A stretch of 64,000 nt of DNA from positions 62,001 to 126,000 of the forward strand of contig NZ_FNWU01000003.1 of assembly GCF_900108505.1 (NCBI RefSeq), given 5' to 3'. This DNA is from Halopenitus malekzadehii. GTDB lineage: Archaea; Halobacteriota; Halobacteria; Halobacteriales; Haloferacaceae. The position numbers and the translations under genes are program-made. Each line of letters begins with the position of its first letter. The first letter of the stretch is position 1. The notes beneath the pieces are model-generated. The model made no database searches, was not told the DNA's origin, and saw only the letters and a program-made list of their open reading frames with translations. Positions 47,416-47,648 of the stretch are shown piece by piece.

Positions 47416-47465
47416 CCGCTCGCGAACCTGCTCGCGGCGCGAATGCGGGAGAAGGGATTTGAACC
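47416..47465. repeat. 50-bp att-like direct repeat (copy A, with tRNA-Leu 3' fragment)
   Basis: Identical over 50 bp to 47536-47585. The right-hand 21 bp (gcgggagaagggatttgaacc) equal the 3' end of the tRNA-Leu gene, T-arm half plus acceptor strand, in the same orientation. The left 29 bp equal the sequence immediately downstream of the tRNA. A partial tRNA copy flanked like this is the classic signature of an attachment site pair. Confidence 0.85.
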
Positions 47466-47535
47466 ACGTGACGACGATCGCCTCGCTTCCGCTCGGCGCT
47501 GCGACGTCTCTGATACAAATCCCCGCCGAAACCCG

Positions 47536-47585
47536 CCGCTCGCGAACCTGCTCGCGGCGCGAATGCGGGAGAAGGGATTTGAACC
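47536..47585. repeat. 50-bp att-like direct repeat (copy B, contiguous with tRNA-Leu)
   Basis: Same 50 bp as 47416-47465 at a period of exactly 120 bp. This copy runs into the intact tRNA-Leu gene from 47565. The 70 bp between the copies show no gene. Confidence 0.85.
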
Positions 47586-47648
47586 CTCGAACCCCTACGG
47601 GAGCGGATCTTAAGTCCGCCGCTTTTGGCCAGGCTCAGCCACCCCCGC
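47565..47648 (-). tRNA. tRNA-Leu (anticodon UAA)
   Basis: On the minus strand the 84-nt gene starts gcgggggtggctgagcctgg and ends ggttcaaatcccttctcccgc, with no encoded CCA. The acceptor stem pairs GCGGGGG with CUCCCGC (one G-U). The anticodon loop is CUUAAGA, giving UAA. A variable arm (gctcccgtaggggttcg region) of the long class II type fits leucine. No intron. The T-arm and acceptor strand are duplicated 120 bp away at 47445-47465. Confidence 0.93.

Follow-up and report, generated by a model that had tools for sequence, protein, structure and literature searches.

What does a second copy of a tRNA 3' end, lying a short distance behind the intact gene, record? The question is raised by tRNA-Leu(UAA), an intact gene on the minus strand (47648-47564; ARAGORN; Rfam RF00005, 53.9 bits) and the sole tRNA of the 64-kb stretch of DNA analysed here (the window). 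The genes around the locus are ordinary and encode an aldo/keto reductase, a hexapeptide transferase and a winged-helix regulator. An earlier note on this DNA had described a 50-bp repeat with an offset of 120 bp, and this repeat is real and exact: copies A (47416-47465) and B (47536-47585) are identical at 50 of 50 bp, they are 120 bp apart from start to start, and their ungapped likeness stretches to 62 bp at 92%. An exact 50-bp match beside tRNA-Leu is far beyond what chance would give. The note took the repeat as a signature of integration at a tRNA 3' end and suggested that an integrative element had perhaps been lost from here, leaving a scar, or that the repeat might be a vacant nested att site. 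We favour a different reading, to which we assign a probability of roughly 0.6: the feature is probably a single member of a haloarchaeal family, so far undescribed, of tRNA-tail foldback cassettes, rtT-like in build, arising by copying that duplicates the tail and held in check by a fold that sequesters it.

In the sense of the tRNA, the locus reads as tRNA, linker hairpin, foldback hairpin, tail copy, and the first 28 nucleotides of the linker again, all on the minus strand. The final 22 nucleotides of the tRNA (47564-47585), the template of the tail, form copy B of the repeat search together with the first 28 nucleotides of the linker. The earlier note had divided the repeat into 21 bp of tRNA and 29 bp of flank; with the 3' end placed by ARAGORN, discriminator included, the division becomes 22 and 28. 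The linker (47523-47563) carries a GC-rich hairpin, GCCGCGAGCAGGTTCGCGAGCGGC. The foldback hairpin (47455-47522, 68 nucleotides) consists of an antisense arm, GGATTTGTA (47522-47514), an inner hairpin, and the TTCAAATCC of the tail copy. Both the repeat search and a tail inventory place this direct copy of the tRNA-Leu tail (GGTTCAAATCCCTTCTCCCGCA) at 47444-47465, identical at 22 of 22 positions, and the repeat search places the second copy of the linker's first 28 nucleotides, with no further hairpin, at 47416-47443. Arrays in the sister genomes and in Halorubrum likewise terminate in a tail and a partial linker. The 70 bp between the two copies of the repeat folds with the second tail, since the G at 47523 and the antisense arm provide GGGATTTG (47523-47516, minus strand), which is complementary to, and pairs with, CAAATCCC in copy A. 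The predicted fold of the entire 233-nucleotide stretch (47416-47648), linker hairpin included, beats 200 of 200 shuffles (z = -3.5). A search of the window with Rfam 15 families returned nothing except the tRNA.

The arrangement recurs at other tRNA genes of the same genome. Counting as an own-tail copy at least 13 nucleotides within 250 bp downstream of the tRNA, we inventoried all tRNA genes and found such copies at 10 of 42 genes in the window genome and 14 of 43 in a sister genome, compared with 0 of 39 in an outgroup that is AT-rich (33% GC) and thus a soft control. Pairing tRNAs of the window genome with the tails of other tRNAs gives 0.8%. In all 24 own-tail cases from the window and sister genomes an inverted arm precedes the tail copy. 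Roughly one tRNA gene in three or four is thus followed by the cassette in the two surveyed Halopenitus genomes. Within each unit a linker hairpin comes first, followed by the tRNA tail in antisense, an inner hairpin and finally the local tail copied in direct orientation; two types can be distinguished. In the T-arm type, tRNA-specific antisense sequence outside the T-loop box is not clearly above chance (SW 7.98 vs 7.53 +/- 0.19). The acceptor type is exemplified by GTGCGCCGTCCG ... CGGACGGCGCA at tRNA-Gly(CCC) and by CGTCCTGAC ... GTCAGGACG at tRNA-Arg(GCG); the purine-rich inner strand of its modules lies on the opposite strand.

Units are widespread among haloarchaea. The exact T-arm hairpin GGATTTGAA-N30-60-TTCAAATCC (the A-U arm form) is present in 118 of 170 genomes of the family, and the G-C arm form in 128 of 167, with no match to the reversed control in either case. 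In a phylum-wide sample of 393 genomes, the T-arm form occurs in 63 of 81 haloarchaea and in only 1 of 312 others. Units that are mostly 90-170 bp long were found in more than 150 haloarchaeal genomes, at many tRNA types per genome. At the loci retrieved, hairpins are situated 3' of a tRNA and in its sense direction, the first unit as a rule being about 33-90 bp away; the few exceptions are a locus with no tRNA or a contig edge. Among the genome-contig matches listed for the hairpin-pattern scan, those outside haloarchaea fit chance (about 116 expected by our own estimate), with the exception of a set of alphaproteobacterial palindromes. The same scan of viral contigs yielded unrelated palindromes only, with no haloarchaeal-type match recognised. 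We found no description of this cassette family in the open-access papers searched.

The nearest architectural parallel is the rtT repeat of E. coli tyrT/tyrV, which is catalogued as RttR RNA (RF00391). Behind the tyrV tRNA of E. coli K-12 stand 178-bp units, each with a tRNA-Tyr tail at its end, and GGGGAAGGAT, the antisense arm of that tail, precedes its copy, ATCCTTCCCC. The haloarchaeal units likewise lie directly 3' of a tRNA, may be arranged in tandem and end in that tRNA's own 3' end, with the antisense arm folding on the tail copy. In contrast to rtT, they are found at many tRNA types per genome, are mostly 90-170 bp in length, and show no sequence match to RF00391. The RF00391 covariance model gave no match in the window genome, with a positive E. 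coli control, and RtT did not match any of 15 unit-bearing loci at E <= 1. Moreover, no Rfam family scored above its gathering score on the units of these 15 loci, where the matches at E <= 1 were limited to tRNAs, S15 leaders and noise. On this analysis we consider the haloarchaeal units rtT-like in working and yet not members of RtT, because the RF00391 model does not match them. A second comparison is with REP and BIME elements, which are short interspersed intergenic palindromes that fall into shared classes and have covarying stems. All of these properties are also seen in the haloarchaeal units, but the latter nearly always adjoin a tRNA 3' end and are joined to a duplicate of the local tail. 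One computational study pointed out a likeness between rtT and BIMEs and linked the rtT transcript to BIME repeats (PMC2965389), and RtT is reported to be an RNA that tRNA transcripts release (PMC4986893).

The hairpins show compensatory changes at paired positions. At the A/G position of the T-loop, arm and tail match at about 633 sites and mismatch at 46 (sums over tables): GGATTTGAA occurs with TTCAAATCC at about 308 sites, GGATTCGAA occurs with TTCGAATCC at about 325, and 46 are mixed. Within the inner helix of the 58-nucleotide class, 10 of 21 pairs have undergone double changes, a value reached by 0 of 500 shuffles, and sliding the partner strand along reduces pairing from 90% to at most 43%. 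Columns of tandem G.A are nearly invariant in this alignment, with five of six being G.A or A.G in at least 30 of 32 sequences. In addition, the tRNA-sense strand folds more stably than the antisense strand in 40 of 46 hairpins. Because of this covariation, the G.A columns and the strand bias of folding, the unit appears to be a folded single strand of tRNA polarity. Mismatches in the outer arm do not favour G.U over A.C (11 vs 20; the corresponding counts in the 58-nucleotide class are 29 vs 18), and therefore the arm pairing may be maintained at the level of DNA rather than RNA; taken together, the counts are compatible with either.

These features bear on the possibility that the unit is a functional structured RNA, transcribed with the tRNA, excised, and active either as a small RNA or as an element of the 3' trailer, as has been claimed for RtT, with its fold under selection. 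The strong helix covariation, the near-invariant G.A positions in the tRNA sense, the greater stability of the sense fold and the placement of nearly all hairpins downstream of a tRNA in sense direction speak for such an RNA. However, close species have empty sites at a conserved tRNA, which speaks against an essential role, and neither the mismatches without a preference for G.U nor the acceptor-type modules, with their purine-rich inner strand on the opposite strand, are easily accommodated. We hold a functional RNA to be possible but rather improbable.

Comparison of orthologous loci is informative about how units come and go. The closest relatives compared were two Halopenitus-level sister genomes, each of which has two units at the orthologous tRNA-Leu where the window genome has one, and the inner stems differ by paired changes. 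At tRNA-Ser in 30 Halorubrum genomes, some sites are empty, the next gene lying about 60-135 bp away, while one unit is present at many sites and two at several; an empty site of 68 bp corresponds to an occupied orthologous site of 206 bp (68 + 138). Two Halorubrum tRNA-Ser loci retain a tail and partial linker only, as recombination between tails predicts. The part of the earlier proposal that something was inserted at the tRNA 3' end is borne out by these empty and occupied sites, which differ by the clean gain or loss of a unit with its tail. The acceptor part of the tail fits the upstream tRNA at 10 or more of 11 positions in 69 of 91 units from 19 tRNA types, compared with 0.7% for other tRNAs, although some tails are decayed or mismatched to the local tRNA. 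Halorubrum tRNA-Asp and tRNA-Ser(GGA) have linker and hairpin in common, each with its own tail, and linker types and hairpin types vary among species in both combination and order. As judged from these comparisons, tRNA genes have gained and lost units, multiplied them and shared them with one another, and the tail is local while the cassette is not.

Such patterns could also be produced by a mobile mini-cassette with a dedicated enzyme that duplicates the tRNA tail as a long target site, either in the manner of a casposase or Cas1 or through arm-guided single-strand transposition of the HUH kind. Local tails flanking a shared cassette and clean empty and occupied sites are consistent with this, as is the resemblance of the arrays to repeat-spacer arrays. 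Furthermore, where arm and tail disagree it is the tail that is local in 24 of 32 mixed sites and the arm in 8. Against it, the separate recombination of linkers and hairpins fits plain recombination, and terminal tails are not clearly more decayed, the polarity of tail decay along arrays being weak (perfect tails 64/99 vs 20/35). A dedicated transposition mechanism is thus conceivable, though we doubt it. We are similarly hesitant about the broader notion of a minimal class of mobile cassettes, in which the palindrome arm would pair with the near-universal T-loop and a putative host enzyme would insert the element at tRNA 3' ends, duplicating more than 20 bp of local tail and building exchangeable arrays.

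In the foldback-cassette reading that we prefer, a tail-less cassette composed of linker, foldback arm and inner hairpin would be copied to a tRNA 3' end, and the local tail would be duplicated in the process, either because the cassette inserts with a target duplication or because arrays undergo gene conversion with one another. Arrays would then grow or shrink as their tail copies recombine. In a run-through transcript of the tRNA, the antisense arm would pair with the surplus tail, keeping it sequestered and leaving the tRNA body to the true 3' end. We infer movement of the cassette from the patterns described above, and its sharing could be explained by conversion between existing arrays with no transposition. 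On balance we regard the cassette as a REP-like repeat that is mostly selfish or neutral and is checked by its fold, and not as a provirus scar.

A scar would arise if an element with a tyrosine integrase had once occupied the tRNA 3' end and was later deleted, leaving a vacant att site. Archaeal att sites are often at tRNA 3' ends and may reach past the gene (PMC8371274), and the directly repeated tRNA 3' end is the arrangement expected of tyrosine-recombinase attL and attR. The locus shares a direct repeat of this kind beside an intact gene with known tRNA-targeted elements (PMC8371274), including the Haloferax gibbonsii IGEs (PMC7921747). Unlike these elements, the haloarchaeal units have neither integrase nor cargo, are tandem, fold back, and have two local tails. 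The copies are separated by 70 bp only, and similar foldback units stand behind about 20 tRNA types and are present in most haloarchaea. The contig of the window (C21) has no Phage_integrase match, and the integrase matches of the genome lie elsewhere, not beside unit-bearing tRNAs. Both tails flanking the shared cassette belong to the local tRNA, an outcome that an attP x attB crossover does not give. The earlier note had proposed looking for an element bounded by the 50-bp repeat; none of kilobase scale was found in relatives, phage or plasmid records, where the phage matches came from SSV-type viruses, in att regions that resemble tRNAs, and from one provirus end, and the best-covered plasmid match was another unit, behind tRNA-Gly on a Natronorubrum megaplasmid. 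We consequently regard the scar as very improbable. The note would have given up this interpretation for a simple tandem duplication present in many genomes with no integration at the tRNA, which is largely what we observe, but the feature exceeds a simple tandem duplication. Replication slippage, acting independently at each locus, would account for the exact repetition of tail and linker in the window and for the different copy numbers in sister genomes, but it is still less credible, as it leaves unexplained the antisense arm, the covarying inner hairpin and the tail-swapped cassettes shared by different tRNAs, the last of which contradict it outright.

Accounts of rtT-type repeats usually concern E. 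coli and its relatives. That haloarchaea have an abundant family of like architecture, seemingly of independent origin, suggests that foldback copies of tRNA 3' ends arise recurrently at these ends. The empty and occupied sites and the tail swaps constitute hundreds of natural replicates for testing how the repeats arose and what they do. Where haloarchaeal annotation lists a partial tRNA next to an intact one, the fragment would often not be a provirus scar; one Haloferax study counted partial tRNAs directly adjoining full ones and left them unexplained (PMC7921747).

Several other structures were encountered during the searches. A Woesearchaeota MAG (DUFX01000036.1, locus L100, 7115-7342), a DPANN bin with 43% GC, has the same foldback unit behind tRNA-Ser(GCT), for which transfer, convergence and mis-binning are alternative explanations. 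Rhizobiales and relatives have a recurrent palindrome of 52-55 nucleotides, GGATTTGAAGTTCCTA ... TAGGAACTTCAAATCC, at loci L069, L095, L105, L080, L085, L090, L099, L121 and others, most of which have no tRNA; its half-sites look FRT-like, and it has no relation to the haloarchaeal unit. Viral contigs L210, L225, L237, L240, L263 and L272, which are high-GC and proviral, contain perfect palindromes (for example GGATTTGAACCGTGGACCTCTGG ... CCAGAGGTCCACGGTTCAAATCC) that apparently repeat a tRNA 3' half in inverted orientation. A dozen tRNA-like genes, several of them low scoring, are densely clustered on one strand at G002:C1:1153325-1154999, probably as a viral or proviral tRNA array. Finally, at the Halorubrum tRNA-Ser loci L310, L312, L313, L317 and L319 a second palindrome (GCGAGGTGCGAGCGAAGCGAGCACCTCG) is nested in the apical loop of some unit hairpins, as if hairpins had inserted into hairpins.
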